Positions 1,363 through 42,010 of a DNA stretch of 42,010 bases are shown one piece after another. This stretch comes from Dehalococcoidia bacterium (lineage in GTDB: Bacteria > Chloroflexota > Dehalococcoidia > DSTF01 > JACRBR01). Within the stretch, counting starts at the first letter, position 1. Each line of letters starts with the position of its first letter. The notes beneath the pieces were generated by a model, which was given only the letters and a program-made list of their open reading frames with translations, searched no databases and was not told the DNA's origin. Both the position numbers and the translations under genes were made by a program. The stretch lies in contig JBBDXD010000014.1 in the NCBI GenBank assembly GCA_040902535.1, forward strand, positions 1 to 42,010. The letters run 5' to 3'.

Positions 1363-1974
1363 TCAGTTGAGCTGGTTGACGAGCTGGAACGCCGGCGGGG
1401 CCGTGCGTTGAATAACCAGATAGGAGCCCGTCGGCGGCTTCACCTCCAGCGAGAACGAAGCATTGGGCCCGACTACCAACCCCTCGGCCGCAAGGTCGAT
1501 CGTGATGCGTATAAGTTCGCCGGGTTCCAGCAGCGTATCGGCGTCGCCACGAAGCGCGGCGGCGGTGAAATTCACGTCGGGGACAAGGTTGTCCGAGTCG
1601 AAGTATGTGATCACGGTGCTGTTGCTTACCGCGGTGGGATCGAGATTCACGGTGTCGCCGCCCGCGGCAAGCGTGAGGTCGAACTCGATCGTGTCAATCT
1701 GCGTCAGCCCCGCGTTCGCGTTCGCGACGAGACCGCTGGAGAGCGTCATGGTGCTGCGCGTTTTCGCCAGGCCGGCGTACACCGCCTCCTTGCCGCGCTC
1801 CGAGCTGAAAAGCCCCGTGCTGAGCACGACGAACGCAAACACGGCGGCGACGACGACGAACGCGATGAGGATGATCGCCGTTTCGAGGCCGGTGACGCCG
1901 TGTTCCTCCTGGAATCGCTTCCAGGCGCTGCGCACGCTGCTCAGGCGACGCGCCGTCGCTTCGATGAATCGCAC
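1363..1974 (-). CDS. Archaellin (archaeal-type flagellin), isolated paralog
   Basis: Predicted filament subunit of an archaellum, exported with a class III (type IV pilin-like) signal. From the GTG at 1974 the protein has 203 aa. It starts with a basic leader of about 26 residues ending in EEHG. The mature N-terminal helix then begins VTGLETAIILIAFVVV and continues to TGLFSSERGKEAVYAGLAKTR. The C-terminal part is beta-rich, with the archaellin-like pattern LAAGGDTVNLDPT and a closing segment KPPTGSYLVIQR. GGAGG lies 8 bases before GTG 1974, which favours that start over the GTG at 1983, where the same GGAGG abuts the codon. The helix is nearly identical to the paralog at 41399, some 40 kb away. 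Members of this family (PF01917) polymerise after cleavage by a prepilin-type peptidase. No motor gene is adjacent. Confidence 0.88.
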   Translation of the reverse strand: MRFIEATARRLSSVRSAWKRFQEEHGVTGLETAIILIAFVVVAAVFAFVVLSTGLFSSERGKEAVYAGLAKTRSTMTLSSGLVANANAGLTQIDTIEFDLTLAAGGDTVNLDPTAVSNSTVITYFDSDNLVPDVNFTAAALRGDADTLLEPGELIRITIDLAAEGLVVGPNASFSLEVKPPTGSYLVIQRTAPPAFQLVNQLN

Positions 1975-2150
1975 TGGAGCCACCTCCCGTCCCCGGCGCC
2001 TCGTTCCGGCGGGCGTCCCCCGGGGTCAACCTTCGTGGAACCACTAGGTGGAGTCCCTAGGGATGTTTCGGCCAGCCCATCGCGCGGCTTTAGGAGAGCG
2101 TGCATAAATTTTGCCGCCACGGCTGCCCGGCCAGCGCAGATTCGCCTCGT

Positions 2151-36956: not shown

Positions 36957-36973
36957 ACGATAGATACGTCGTT

Positions 36974-39592
36974 ATGGGAGCAACAGGCGCCCCTCAACTG
37001 TCACAGGATGGCGACGGTGACGCTCGCGTTGGCGGGAGGCTGGCGCTCGCCTCCAGGTGGCGGCTTCGTGCAGGGCTGCATCGTCCGTCGTCCCTCGTAG
37101 TCGCCGCTACTGTCGTCTGCCTGGCAGTTGGGTTCGTCGCAGTTCTGACGTACTTCGGCGCGCGCGCTTTCACGAGCCGGGCCGCCGATCAGCGGGCCGC
37201 CGAAGAGGCTGCGTCGTTCGCCATGCACAGCTCGCTCCTTGCGACCGGCGATGCCTTCAACGGCTATCTGCAGATCCTGCGCTACTCGGAAGATCCGGCG
37301 CTCCGATCGCGCGCCGCCTCGCCCGAGGCGCGACGGAATGCAATGCAGCAGTTGCTCTGGCTGAACACGAACAAAATGGCTGTTCTCGCCGTCGCGGACC
37401 GCTCGGGGCTGGTGCTCGAGAGCACGGACGGATCGATCCAAAGCGTGCGAGGGAGCGCGGCCTTCAACGAGTCGCGCGCGAACTTGGGGCCCGCTAACTC
37501 GGACATCGTGTTGCCTGAGGGGGGCGAGCGTGGTTATGTCGAGTATAGTGCCCCGCTGCGCGATCCCGATGGAACCGTGTGGGGCTTCCTGTACGCGCGT
37601 GCCGAACCGCAGGTCCTCTGGAGCGACACGCTCAACGCCTCCATCGATGGCGGCCACAACGTCATCATCAACAGCGAGGGCGTTTTCTCAGCGGGTGTCC
37701 CCGACGAATTGCTGAGGCAGCCGTGGAGTGGTTCGACCCTGGGGAACGGCAGTGTGCGAGCAGAAATCGCCGGCGTCGAAGCGATTTGCGGGCTCGGCGC
37801 CATCGGCAGAGACACGCAGATCGACCACGGCTGGTTCGTGGCCTCGTGCTTGCCTGCGTCCCTGATCCAGGTGGAAGCCGGGCGGGCGCTCGGGAACCAG
37901 GGTCAGATCACGATTGCCGGCGCCGTGCTGGCAGTTGTCATCGCGATCGGCCTTCTGCGTATCGCGCTCGGCTCGCCCGCGCCGCCTGCAGTCGCGCAGC
38001 ATCCCGATGAGATGGAGGACGCCGACGCGCCATTTGAAGTGGAGGAAGGCGGCCTAGCCGCGGAAACGCACGCCGTGATCGAAGCACCGGAGGCGTCGCC
38101 GGGTGAACCGGAAGCCGGCCCGGCGGAACCCGCAGCACCCATCGTCGTTATCGCAGACGTCGACGCACTGGCCGTGATGGACGCGTACGAGCGCCGCAAC
38201 GCGCTGCTCTCGAACGAGCTGCGAGAGAGCATTCAGGCACGCCTGATGATCGCCGTCACGCAGGCCGAGGAGGCCTACAACCTCAGTGCCACGGATCCGG
38301 ACCGGGCGATCGCGTTGCATCGGGCGGCGATGGATGAACTCGAGTCAGTGCGTGAACGCGGGTTGCGCGGCATGGGCCAGGAGTTGCACCCGAGCCTTGT
38401 GCGGCTCGGACTTCCGGGCGCGCTCCGGTCGCTCAAAAAGGAGTTCGCGGACCGTGTCACGATCGACCTCCAGGTGGATGCGAACGTCGACGGGGCGTCC
38501 AGTCGCGGGGGCAGGGTCACCATCGACAACAGGCTGCGGCTCATCGTGTACCGCGTCATCCGCGATGCGGTCCGGACTGCGTACGCCGGTCGTGCAGACA
38601 GCGTCACGATTGCGATCCAGCGAGACGGCCTCGAGATCACTGCTGCCGTGACCTCGAAGCTGTCGGGCGGCGACGCGGACGCTGCACGTGAAACACTCCT
38701 GGCAGGGGAGGTGGCGCTGAGGGCGTTCGGCGGCAGCCTGACGGTCGACACCGAGGGCGCGCTACGCGTCATCGCGCGCGTGCTCGCGCCTAACGTCGCG
38801 CAGCCTGAGCCACTGATAAGCGCGCGGACGGAGGACGACGACGCCATCGTCGCGCAAGGCACCCTGCATGCCGATTCAACTGCCAGCCGGATCGAAGACG
38901 ATCTCCAGGCCACCGCGCACGAACTCGCCTCCACAGTCGACATCCGGTTCGTGTCCACGGCGGATTCCGCTTCCCTGCGTCCGGCGGATGAGCTCTGCAT
39001 AGCGATGATCGACGTACTACGAGTGGCGGCCGCAGGATTCAGCGAAGCCGGCGCGAACACCTGCGATGCTTCGCTCAAGCTCGAACACGATGCGGGTGAA
39101 CTGAGGATCAGCGCCCGCACGCTTCTGAGCATGGAGCGCCTCGACGATATCCGTCAGCGCGGGGAACAGGCCGGCTGCTCCATCTCGATCGCGCGCGATG
39201 CATCCGGCATGTCGATCGCGCTGAGATTCGATCTGCTGCCTCAGCCCCGGCCGGCCATTGTGCGCTTCGCGCTGCCCGAAGACGAGCCCAGCGTCATTCC
39301 CGTCTCCGAACCCCCGCCCTATCTCGCCCCCGTGCTGCCGGCCACGGCCGTCACGTTTCGCATCCCCGACGGCGGGGCACTGTTCGAGTCGATGGACGAA
39401 GCGGCTGGGATGCCGGTGGCGGCGGTGGACGATGTCCTGCCGAGCGTCGTCCAGGTGTCGTCGCTTGCCGAGGTCATCCCCGCCGATGCGGATGCCGTCG
39501 AAGGCGAACCGTCGGAAGCAGACGCTGAGGTTGACGCGACCGCGCTCGGTGACGGCGATGGGCGACGCTCGCCGGACGAGGACGCGGCGTAG
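36974..39592 (+). CDS. Membrane sensor resembling a degenerate histidine kinase
   Basis: From ATG 36974 (no clear ribosome site; the longer frame runs antisense to mrfA) the protein has 872 aa. Transmembrane helices lie at about 41-62 and 312-332. They enclose an extracytoplasmic sensor of some 245 residues, probably Cache/PAS-like. An acidic Ala/Pro/Glu linker leads to a HisKA_3-like helix with GQELHPSLVRLGL (His472). The following ATPase-like region keeps IVYRVIRDAV, but the N-box Asn is Thr and no DxG motif is seen. A second similar region lies at about 635-765. ATP binding is doubtful. Convergent with the regulator gene next door, it is its likely partner. Confidence 0.7.
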   Translation: MGATGAPQLSQDGDGDARVGGRLALASRWRLRAGLHRPSSLVVAATVVCLAVGFVAVLTYFGARAFTSRAADQRAAEEAASFAMHSSLLATGDAFNGYLQILRYSEDPALRSRAASPEARRNAMQQLLWLNTNKMAVLAVADRSGLVLESTDGSIQSVRGSAAFNESRANLGPANSDIVLPEGGERGYVEYSAPLRDPDGTVWGFLYARAEPQVLWSDTLNASIDGGHNVIINSEGVFSAGVPDELLRQPWSGSTLGNGSVRAEIAGVEAICGLGAIGRDTQIDHGWFVASCLPASLIQVEAGRALGNQGQITIAGAVLAVVIAIGLLRIALGSPAPPAVAQHPDEMEDADAPFEVEEGGLAAETHAVIEAPEASPGEPEAGPAEPAAPIVVIADVDALAVMDAYERRNALLSNELRESIQARLMIAVTQAEEAYNLSATDPDRAIALHRAAMDELESVRERGLRGMGQELHPSLVRLGLPGALRSLKKEFADRVTIDLQVDANVDGASSRGGRVTIDNRLRLIVYRVIRDAVRTAYAGRADSVTIAIQRDGLEITAAVTSKLSGGDADAARETLLAGEVALRAFGGSLTVDTEGALRVIARVLAPNVAQPEPLISARTEDDDAIVAQGTLHADSTASRIEDDLQATAHELASTVDIRFVSTADSASLRPADELCIAMIDVLRVAAAGFSEAGANTCDASLKLEHDAGELRISARTLLSMERLDDIRQRGEQAGCSISIARDASGMSIALRFDLLPQPRPAIVRFALPEDEPSVIPVSEPPPYLAPVLPATAVTFRIPDGGALFESMDEAAGMPVAAVDDVLPSVVQVSSLAEVIPADADAVEGEPSEADAEVDATALGDGDGRRSPDEDAA

Positions 39593-39670: not shown

Positions 39671-40387
39671 TCAGGCTGCCTTGCGGCTTCGTGCCTCGGG
39701 TTGTGCCTCGTCGGATTCGTCGGACGTGCCCAGCGTTTCCTGCAGGTACAGCAGGACAGCCTTCACGCGCGGGTGTGCGGCATTGTCACGGCTGAGGTTG
39801 AGCTGTCCGAAGATGGCGTTGATGTGATTCTCAACGGACTTCTCTTCGAGGACCAGCGAACGGGCGATAGCGGCGTTGTTGTACCCCTTCGCCATGAGCG
39901 AGAGCACTTCGAGCTGCCGCCTGGTGAGCGCCGAGAGACGGGTTTCGCGTCGCCCGAGGCTCTCGACGACAAGCGGATCCAATACGACGAGGCCCATCGC
40001 CGCGCCATCGATGGCCCGCACCAGCGTTGCCACGTCAGTCACCGACTGCCGTAGTAAGTACGACCAGCCAGCAGCTCGGAATGCGGGTAGCGCGGCCAGG
40101 GTGCGGCGGTCCGGGCGTTCGCCAAGGAAGACGATGCGCGAGCCGGCCTTCGCGCCGGAGATTGACTGCGCAATCCTCAATGCGTCGTGCTCACTCTCGG
40201 CATCGAGGCCGATGAGCGAGACGTCGGCGCGCTCGCTCGACGCCATGCGCATTGCCTCGGCGGCATCACCCGTCGCGCCGACGAGCAGGAGCCGAGGCTC
40301 GCTCGAAAGCACGGTGCGCAGCATGTCGCGAAGGAGGCCATCGGCCTCGATCACCAGGACGCGGATGCGGTTGTCTTGCTTATCCAT
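39671..40387 (-). CDS. NarL/LuxR-family regulator with degenerate receiver
   Basis: 238 aa from ATG 40387. Residues 8-128 have the receiver fold, but all conserved functional positions differ from NarL. The acidic pair is Glu14-Ala15 (IEADG), the phospho-Asp is Gly60 (SLIGLD), the Ser/Thr is Gly89, and the Lys is Arg113 (YLLRQ). Residues 150-217 form an intact LuxR-type helix-turn-helix (LTRRQLEVLSLMAKGYNNAAIA, broken by one turn, then KSVENHINAIFGQL). It should therefore bind DNA without ordinary phosphorylation control. It is divergent from an archaellin gene and convergent with the sensor. Confidence 0.85.
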   Translation of the reverse strand: MDKQDNRIRVLVIEADGLLRDMLRTVLSSEPRLLLVGATGDAAEAMRMASSERADVSLIGLDAESEHDALRIAQSISGAKAGSRIVFLGERPDRRTLAALPAFRAAGWSYLLRQSVTDVATLVRAIDGAAMGLVVLDPLVVESLGRRETRLSALTRRQLEVLSLMAKGYNNAAIARSLVLEEKSVENHINAIFGQLNLSRDNAAHPRVKAVLLYLQETLGTSDESDEAQPEARSRKAA

Positions 40388-40497
40388 GCCTACCTGAGCA
40401 ATTGTCGGCCCACGCGGCTTCGCCCACATAAGGGTGTTCGCTGATTCTCCCCGTTCCTGCGAAGGCTGAGGATGCGTTTCGCGGCAAGTGGCCGTAT

Positions 40498-40570
40498 GGG
40501 TGCAGGCACCCAAGGTCGGATGGGTGGCATCACCGTGCGGCTCCTGGGTGCTGATCACGACCTTAATACA
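40498..40570. promoter_or_regulatory. Dyad array and promoter-like element between regulator and archaellin
   Basis: TGGGTG occurs at 40497, 40521 and 40545, exactly 24 bases apart. The first two open clear dyads, GGGTGCAGGCACCC (40498-40511) and GGGTGGCATCACCG (40522-40535); the third is partial. ACGACCTTAATACA at 40557-40570 begins 35 bases after the second dyad and 66 before the archaellin ATG. The tandem archaellin gene has the same arrangement. The array also lies in front of the regulator gene and may autoregulate it. Confidence 0.6.
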
Positions 40571-40622
40571 GGTGCATGAAGCGCCTGAGCGATGCATGCG
40601 ACCGCATGGAGGCGACACGCGG

Positions 40623-41201
40623 ATGCACACCCGCAACCTGATCCGAAGACTGCGCCAGGAACACGGCATCACCGGCCTTGAGACGGCGATCGTCCTCATC
40701 GCCTTCATCACGGTGTCGGCTGTCTTCGCGTTCGTCGTGCTCAGCACCGGCCTCTTCAGCGCGGAGCGAGGGCGGGAAGCAGTGTTCGCCGGCCTGTCGA
40801 AGACGCGCGGCTCGATCACGTTGACCGGTGGCATCCTGGCGACGTCCGACCAGACGGAGATCACGGACCTGACGTTCTCGGTCGTGCTCGCTGCGGGCGG
40901 CGACTCTGTCAGCATTGATCCCGCGGCATCGAACGGCCGCACGGTGATCAGCTACATCGACAGCGCGATCGCCGATCCCGATCTCGAGTACACGGTAACG
41001 GCGGTGGTCGGGAACGCGGACAGCGTGTTAGGACCGGGAGAGATCATGGAGGTTGGCATCGACCTCACGCAGAATGCGCAGATCTCCCTTGGCACAAACG
41101 ACACCTTCACGCTGGAGATCAAGCCGCCCTCCGGGTCGTACCTCGTCGTGCGGCGGACCACGCCGGCATCTATCTCCGACACAATCATCGATTTGAACTA
41201 A
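40623..41201 (+). CDS. Archaellin (archaeal-type flagellin), first tandem copy
   Basis: 192-aa filament subunit. ATG 40623 lies ten bases after GGAGG; earlier in-frame starts would extend through the regulatory array. The leader is MHTRNLIRRLRQEHG (15 aa), and predicted cleavage leaves ITGLETAIVLIAFITV as the start of the mature helix. The globular part follows the archaellin pattern, with LAAGGDSVSIDP and KPPSGSYLVVRR. It is the most divergent of the three copies (FSAERGREAVFAGLSKTR in the helix). There are no cysteines. A prepilin-type peptidase and an archaellum motor must be encoded elsewhere. Confidence 0.9.
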   Translation: MHTRNLIRRLRQEHGITGLETAIVLIAFITVSAVFAFVVLSTGLFSAERGREAVFAGLSKTRGSITLTGGILATSDQTEITDLTFSVVLAAGGDSVSIDPAASNGRTVISYIDSAIADPDLEYTVTAVVGNADSVLGPGEIMEVGIDLTQNAQISLGTNDTFTLEIKPPSGSYLVVRRTTPASISDTIIDLN

Positions 41202-41223
41202 CCAGTCCCTTGATCCTCACAAC

Positions 41224-41255
41224 GCGGCGCCCTTGACTCACCGAGCAGGCGCCGC
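41224..41255 (+). terminator. Hairpin between the two tandem archaellin genes
   Basis: GCGGCGCC (41224-41231) pairs perfectly with GGCGCCGC (41248-41255) across a 16-base loop. No T-run follows, so it may be a weak terminator or an mRNA 3'-end stabiliser. Confidence 0.35.
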
Positions 41256-41276
41256 CGTTCGCCGCGATACGCGCGT

Positions 41277-41348
41277 GGGCGCTCACACCCACGCAAATCG
41301 GGTGCGCGTACCGTGAGAACTTCTCCTAGGGAGAACGACCTTTATCAC
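41277..41348. promoter_or_regulatory. Dyad pair and promoter-like element of the second tandem archaellin
   Basis: GGGCGCTCACACCC (41277-41290) and GGGTGCGCGTACCG (41300-41313) are 23 bases apart. They match, in order, the two dyads of the first archaellin gene, each with one departure. ACGACCTTTATCAC at 41335-41348 again begins 35 bases after the second dyad and 64 before the ATG. Between them TTCTCC-TAG-GGAGAA (41321-41335) is a further perfect inverted repeat. Confidence 0.6.
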
Positions 41349-41398: not shown

Positions 41399-41980
41399 AT
41401 GAACCGAGTCAAGCAGTTCGTGCACAGACTGCGCAACGAGCGCGGCATCACGGGCCTCGAGACGGCAATCGTCCTCATCGCGTTTGTGGTCGTGGCAGCG
41501 GTGTTCGCCTTTGTTGTGCTCAGCACGGGCCTCTTCAGTTCGGAGCGAGGCAAGGAAGCAGTCTATGCCGGTCTGGCGAAGACACGCGGCTCGATGTCGT
41601 TGACCGGCGGCATCATCGCCGACTCCAACGGCACGTCGATCACCGATCTTCGGTTTGGCCTGACGCTTGCGGCCGGCGGCGACTCGGTGAACCTGGACTC
41701 GACAGACGCATCGAACCGCACCGTGATTTCTTATGTCGATGAGACGGTGTTCACGAACACGATGGACTACACCGCGACCGAGGTGCTCGGCGATGGCGAT
41801 CTGCTGCTTGAGCAAGGGGAGCTCGTGCAAATCGACATCGACATGGCAGCCGAATGCGGCTGCACAATCACCGAGAACTTCAGCTTCACGCTGGAGCTGA
41901 AGCCGCCGACGGGCAGCTACCTGGTGATCCAGCGGCTGACTCCGGCGTCACTGGCAGAAAGCATTATCGACCTCAACTAG
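41399..41980 (+). CDS. Archaellin (archaeal-type flagellin), second tandem copy
   Basis: 193 aa from ATG 41399, eight bases after GGAGG; an in-frame ATG ten codons upstream precedes the ribosome site and is rejected. Leader MNRVKQFVHRLRNERG (16 aa), then mature ITGLETAIVLIAFVVV and TGLFSSERGKEAVYAGLAKT, nearly identical to the copy at 1974. The globular part has LAAGGDSVNLDST and KPPTGSYLVIQRLTPAS. Unlike the other copies it has a Cys-Gly-Cys near residue 153. Two differing archaellins side by side suggest major and minor filament subunits, as in archaea. Confidence 0.9.
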   Translation: MNRVKQFVHRLRNERGITGLETAIVLIAFVVVAAVFAFVVLSTGLFSSERGKEAVYAGLAKTRGSMSLTGGIIADSNGTSITDLRFGLTLAAGGDSVNLDSTDASNRTVISYVDETVFTNTMDYTATEVLGDGDLLLEQGELVQIDIDMAAECGCTITENFSFTLELKPPTGSYLVIQRLTPASLAESIIDLN

Positions 41981-42002: not shown

Positions 42003-42010
42003 GTGCGGCG
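42003..42010 (+). CDS. Probable start of a further gene cut by the window edge
   Basis: GGAAGGA at 41992-41998 precedes a GTG at 42003 by four bases; only Met-Arg and part of a codon are visible. If real, it is in the archaellin transcript. Nothing can be said about the product. Confidence 0.25.

Follow-up and report, generated by a model that had tools for sequence, protein, structure and literature searches.

In one group of Chloroflexota with genes for an archaea-derived swimming filament, these genes have in common a precisely spaced control region, and a neighbouring regulator probably activates it. We analysed a 42,010-nucleotide stretch of a Dehalococcoidia contig, referred to as the window, in which the tandem archaellin genes arl1 and arl2 are each preceded by a module of two dyads and a downstream core. 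The module very probably functions in archaellin transcription, and the best overall explanation, which we favour as fairly probable, is an activator-dependent promoter with two tandem operators whose regulator would be the divergently encoded LuxR/NarL-type protein. The function of bacterial archaella was shown as late as 2025, and the searchable papers do not address how bacterial RNA polymerase expresses an operon of archaeal origin, made for TBP/TFB promoters. With the module come precise DNA sites and candidates for both the regulator and the regulon, by which this question of expression becomes testable.

Each of the two start codons (40623 and 41399) is accompanied by a Shine-Dalgarno sequence and a class III signal peptide. 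The window breaks off at 42010, where the contig has a stretch of 100 N (L006:2011-2110), partway through a series of four archaellin genes in tandem, of which genes 3 and 4 lie past the window. Gene 3 carries a full module just past the window end (GGGTGCGCGCACCC, then GGGTGCGATTACCG 23 bp on, then ACGATCCTTC) and gene 4 a worn copy. A separate archaellin gene at 1363-1983 on the minus strand is without dyads and has a sigma28-like promoter instead; this class, with such a promoter in place of dyads, is also seen in G004-G007. Archaellins are present in all eight genomes of the window family (f1) and in 14 of the 18 genomes of the order. On L100, a contig listed as part of an Acetobacteraceae MAG (HOT.MB2.46), there is an archaellin with 53% identity to that of the window, through either misbinning or transfer.

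Table 1. Positions of the archaellin genes, the module elements and the regulator genes (window coordinates, or locus handles for the last row)
Feature	Position	Strand	Remarks
Sigma28-like promoter	2065..2092	-	TAAAG-N15-GCCGAAAC; upstream of separate archaellin gene 1363-1983 (-)
LuxR/NarL-type regulator, candidate binder	39671..40387	-	GerE HTH E=8e-12; receiver below Pfam cut-off
Putative promoter of regulator gene	40402..40446	-	GAATCAGCGAACACCCTTATGTG-N16-CCGACAA; layout like archaellin dyad 2 and core
Dyad 1 of arl1, putative distal operator	40498..40511	+	GGGTGCAGGCACCC; perfect palindrome
Dyad 2 of arl1 with right extension, putative proximal operator overlapping -35 region	40522..40539	+	GGGTGGCATCACCGTGCG
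Putative promoter core of arl1	40557..40567	+	ACGACCTTAAT; CGA 25 bp past CCGTG
Archaellin gene 1 (arl1)	40623..41201	+	PF01917, E=1e-20
Dyad 1 of arl2	41277..41290	+	GGGCGCTCACACCC; one arm mismatch
Dyad 2 of arl2 with right extension	41300..41317	+	GGGTGCGCGTACCGTGAG; arms imperfect
Putative promoter core of arl2	41335..41345	+	ACGACCTTTAT
Archaellin gene 2 (arl2)	41399..41980	+	PF01917, E=1.3e-26
LuxR-type genes divergent to archaellins	L111, L114, L116, L119, L127, L129, L133, L140, L146, L152, L164, L166

An earlier note on this DNA had described a pair of GGGTG-N4-CACC-like dyads ahead of each gene, and a check of the exact words finds them in place, with dyad 2 reading GGGTGGCATCACCG at arl1 (spacing 24) and GGGTGCGCGTACCG at arl2 (spacing 23). 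The first dyad of each pair ends in CACCC and the second in ACCG, and the element ACGACCTTWAT begins in both cases 35 bases past the start of dyad 2 and 66 (arl1) or 64 (arl2) bases ahead of the start codon, all as reported there. As symmetric sites the dyads hold up in part: the arms at 40498 are perfect, those at 40522 and 41277 have one mismatch each, and at 41300 (GGGTG/TACCG) 3/5 positions pair, hence its absence from the one-mismatch listing; dyad 2 is less symmetric than dyad 1. ACGACCTTWAT is present at both sites, but its invariant part is the CGA core only, and the element alone is unspecific, with three more copies in G000, one of them within a coding frame. The argument that bound dimers would sit two helical turns apart is weak, as 23-24 bp correspond to 2.2-2.3 turns.

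Background frequencies were derived from genome pattern searches, shuffles and individual loci. When each of the two intergenic regions was dinucleotide-shuffled 20,000 times, no dyad pair arose, and in the whole window the pair pattern is found at 40498 and 41277 only, on the forward strand. The rest of the two upstream regions does differ, as had been claimed: the arl1 and arl2 modules are identical at 35/61 positions, and outside the module identity is at chance level (16/60 in the 60 bp upstream, 17/54 in the 54 bp downstream and 3/16 in the inner spacer). A search of Rfam gave no match.

Conservation in close relatives, on which the earlier note had made its reading depend, is found at archaellins of two families (f1 and f2), where the module or a partial form precedes 14 archaellin genes in nine genomes (G000-G004, G006-G009). 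With the CCR and CGA distance anchors placed by hand on aligned sequences, dyad 1 lies 34 or 35 bp from CCRTG in 14/14 cases, and CCRTG lies 25 bp from CGA in 12/14, with 24 and 26 bp in one each. The consensus is approximately RGGTGcnGCACCY - AARTC GGGTG..tCACCaTGCg - 16 bp - cACGAaCCTt; the informative positions are the module ends, and the spacer within holds almost no information. A search of 18 genomes for GGTGN4CACC-N9-13-GGTGN5ACC returned eight places, seven of them upstream of archaellins and the eighth (G007 C319) unrelated to archaellins, and the reversed pattern, used as control, returned none. Over all retrieved DNA, a regular expression for the module matched about 11 further unrelated single places, most without the right arm of dyad 1, and a match to the expression alone is therefore no proof. 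Across genomes the palindrome of dyad 1 is nearly perfect, and in G007 even its outer bases, A and T, match; that of dyad 2 is looser. Its symmetry is gone in G002 and G003 (AATTAAGCGTTATCCCCATAC and AATCAGCGTTACCCCCATAC), yet AATC...CCATAC, the distance to CACGAACC and the 25-bp distance to CGA are kept; at G007 C172 the pairing is lost too and the flanks persist.

The proteins of solved structure nearest to the divergent regulator in phmmer searches are VraR, NarL and DevR, aligned over both domains. At the phospho-Asp position VraR DLILMDL aligns with DVSLIGL of the regulator, which places a Gly there; Gly is found in 6/6 aligned f1 orthologs and Asp in both f2 orthologs. The Gly makes an ordinary two-component switch unlikely. 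The recognition helix VLEEKSVENHINAIF is invariant among orthologs, down to 47% overall identity. Orthologs (47-83% identity) are restricted to f1 and f2 (G000-G004, G006-G009), the module-bearing families, and f3/f4 contain relatives of about 30% identity only; no strong ortholog was found in G005, a genome that is 76% complete. Such co-distribution over two related families is common to many genes. In seven genomes the regulator gene and an archaellin gene are divergently arranged. The dyads lie between the two in G000, G004, G006, G007, G008 and G009; in G001 the regulator-adjacent archaellin is without the module and the dyads precede the next one, and in G002 and G003 the regulator gene and the archaellin are on different contigs. 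The binder at the archaellin genes is likeliest to be this regulator, an assignment that we make from linkage and distribution with moderate confidence.

The regulator gene's own putative promoter has the form ATGYG-N16/17-CCGAYAA in the window family (GAATCAGCGCTCTCCCGCATGCG-N16-CCGATAA in G004, with related forms in G000, G001, G003 and G006) and contains an AATC-CCC-ATGYG element resembling dyad 2. This similar layout, and the loss of dyad 2 symmetry with flanks and distance retained, lead us to read dyad 2 as overlapping or forming the -35 region. A large protein encoded beside the regulator (36971-39592, plus strand) matches Cache weakly and, judged by eye, contains a core like that of histidine kinases in which the ATPase motifs are degenerate; relatives of it (38-47% identity) lie near the regulator in the G001, G006 and G007 loci.

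We propose that each archaellin gene has an activator-dependent promoter, at which a dimeric regulator would occupy dyad 1 (RGGTGCNNGCACCY) and, by cooperative binding, also dyad 2, a weaker site about 23 bp further downstream that overlaps the -35 region. The bound regulator would bring RNA polymerase to a core that is poor in itself, CCRTG-N20-CGA (in many cases NACGAMCYTY), and transcription of the window genes would start approximately 50-60 bases ahead of the start codon. The analysis shows the sequences, their spacing and conservation, the linkage and the phyletic match; binding, activation rather than repression, the start site and the sigma factor are what we infer. Having lost the phosphate-accepting Asp, the regulator of this family would have to respond to some input besides ordinary phosphorylation, e.g. 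its own level or a partner, and the same operator as a single site would tie archaellins to cyclic-di-GMP enzymes and surface genes. The earlier description as two operators and a promoter core thus survives as the best reading, but dyad 2 is not a plain second copy, CGA alone is invariant in the core, and dyad 1 is not archaellin-specific.

The proposed arrangement can be compared with known systems. Targets of DevR/DosR, a NarL-subfamily regulator of Mycobacterium, have closely packed sites that are bound cooperatively, the proximal one overlapping -35 (PMC3029386). The window shares with them a regulator with receiver and LuxR-type HTH and two closely spaced inverted-repeat sites (dyad 2 being imperfect), and the CCR to CGA distance of 25 bp would be compatible with a proximal site over -35; the window differs in the half-site sequence and in a regulator without phospho-Asp. 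EarA controls archaeal archaellum operons via TACATA boxes with BRE/TATA (PMC10665913), which resembles the putative dedicated regulator with upstream boxes in the window and differs in DNA motif, regulator family and the bacterial promoter context. An archaellum is present in Litorilinea aerophila, also of the Chloroflexota (PMC12488501). Term searches of the 2025 structure paper (PMC12488501) and the 2026 envelope paper (PMC13319060) on Litorilinea returned no discussion of archaellum promoters or transcription regulators, and literature searches of open-licence papers found nothing on the control of bacterial archaella.

The dyad 1-type palindrome also occurs alone. The strict form RGGTGCNNGCACCY has 33 sites in the ten f1/f2 genomes, where the control has 5, and 4 sites in the eight f3/f4 genomes, where the control again has 5 (Fisher p=0.013; after removal of the eight archaellin sites, 25 versus 5, p=0.03), and among the 18 genomes the single palindrome is absent from three of the four without archaellins. 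Its neighbours include (i) GGDEF genes (G000 C3, G003 C5), with a GGDEF membrane protein in two genera, (ii) HD-GYP genes (G000 C9, G000 C14, G003 C12), (iii) cohesin-like genes (G000 C28, G004, G005, G006), an assignment below the Pfam cut-off, (iv) pilin-like proteins, the second of which, like some orthologies, was assigned by eye, and (v) a CoA-binding/CAP-like divergent pair in two genomes. This functional pattern, seen after the fact, is suggestive. Single palindromes of this or a near form stand beside GGDEF, HD-GYP, cohesin-like or pilin-like genes at L060, L061, L064, L195, L234, L067, L190, L255, L257, L232 and L258. At L260 (G000 C24) and L234 (G003 C12) a FliA/WhiG-like sigma gene is followed by a membrane HD-domain gene, and at L234 the palindrome lies between the two.

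The occurrence of dyad 1 at genes distant from the regulator means that another factor of equal phyletic range is possible, and the module may be an operator-promoter at which such a regulator, for instance one tied to cyclic-di-GMP, binds dyad 1 while the target of the LuxR-type protein is dyad 2 or another site. The single sites next to the GGDEF, HD-GYP, cohesin-like and pilin-like genes all lie away from the regulator gene, and HD_5 genes, 11 in all in G000, make up 2 of about 8 palindrome neighbours there (p ~ 4e-4; post hoc). Regulons are normally scattered, however, so distant sites are compatible with a linked regulator; the palindrome is not enriched in genomes missing the regulator ortholog, and the analysis put forward no specific rival factor. 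We consider this reading rather unlikely, and to a similar degree one in which dyad 1 is the sole operator and dyad 2 is the -35 part of a FliA/WhiG-family alternative sigma promoter. The sigma28 (FliA/SigD/WhiG) consensus at flagellin promoters, likewise promoters of motility filament genes, is TAAAG-N14-GCCGATAA; cores close to it, TAAAG-N14-GCCGACAA or TAAAG-N14-GCCGACAAT, precede other archaellins of the order. TAAAG-N13-15-GCCGAYAA is rare, with six places in 18 genomes: three archaellins, the regulator gene of G009 (f2) and two by unrelated genes. The regulator promoter of the window family also speaks for such a sigma factor, as does a FliA/WhiG-like match, at least one in 18/18 genomes and mostly two strong (in G000, C24 passes the NCBIfam cut-off and C26 falls slightly short of it), but these genomes include archaellin-free ones. 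Against it, no dyad-bearing module, those of arl1 and arl2 included, has TAAAG at -35, and CGA alone of GCCGATAA is kept at arl1 and arl2. Cores in G008, G009 and G001 C22 match GCCGATAA at about 6/8 positions, and the f2 cores GACGACAA and ACCGAAAA look intermediate between GCCGATAA and f1 CACGAACC. A degenerate sigma28-type core at the module promoters is plausible; the identification of the sigma factor itself is doubtful. The idea that archaellins throughout the Chloroflexota use sigma28 was rejected: most other upstream regions in the phylum lack the signature, with no enrichment beyond a few loci of this order.

Two further explanations have far lower probability. The dyads could be RNA hairpins, acting as a terminator or as the leader of read-through from the preceding gene, and a 5-bp stem is possible in GGGTGCAGGCACCC; but no T-run follows the dyads, the module also stands ahead of divergent genes with no same-strand gene upstream, its distances to the downstream core are fixed, and dyad 2 has lost its pairing but kept its flanks in G002, G003 and G007 C172, all of which makes this very improbable. 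It is still harder to credit that the likeness of the modules is left over from tandem duplication. The genes are tandem paralogs (58% protein identity between arl1 and arl2), but this origin is contradicted by flanks and inner spacer at chance identity beside a conserved module, and by the presence of the module in other genera and in the second family.

The linked regulator may have wider counterparts. When 80 named archaellin loci were searched with the regulator by tblastn, 12 further loci emerged outside the order, from several Chloroflexota lineages, in which a LuxR-type gene, 30-35% identical, lies upstream of and divergent to an archaellin (Table 1), and a thirteenth (L134) with such a gene on the same strand. 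Ten of the twelve carry Gly or Ser at the phospho position, and two carry Asp (L140, L166). Tentatively, a dedicated regulator with a dead receiver could have accompanied the archaellum through the Chloroflexota as a master switch that connected the archaeal machine to bacterial transcription and, within this order, also to a cyclic-di-GMP/surface regulon. Enrichment of k-mers over 66 other archaellin upstream regions gave mainly Shine-Dalgarno-like words and no operator; GGAGGTGA occurs in 16/66 of these regions versus 0.7 expected. The long leaders ahead of archaellin 4 and its relatives (L006:3005-3264, L015, L172, L012, L013) have a weak consensus fold (-15.6 kcal/mol for the alignment) and share, well ahead of the start, words similar to AAGGAGGTGGC.
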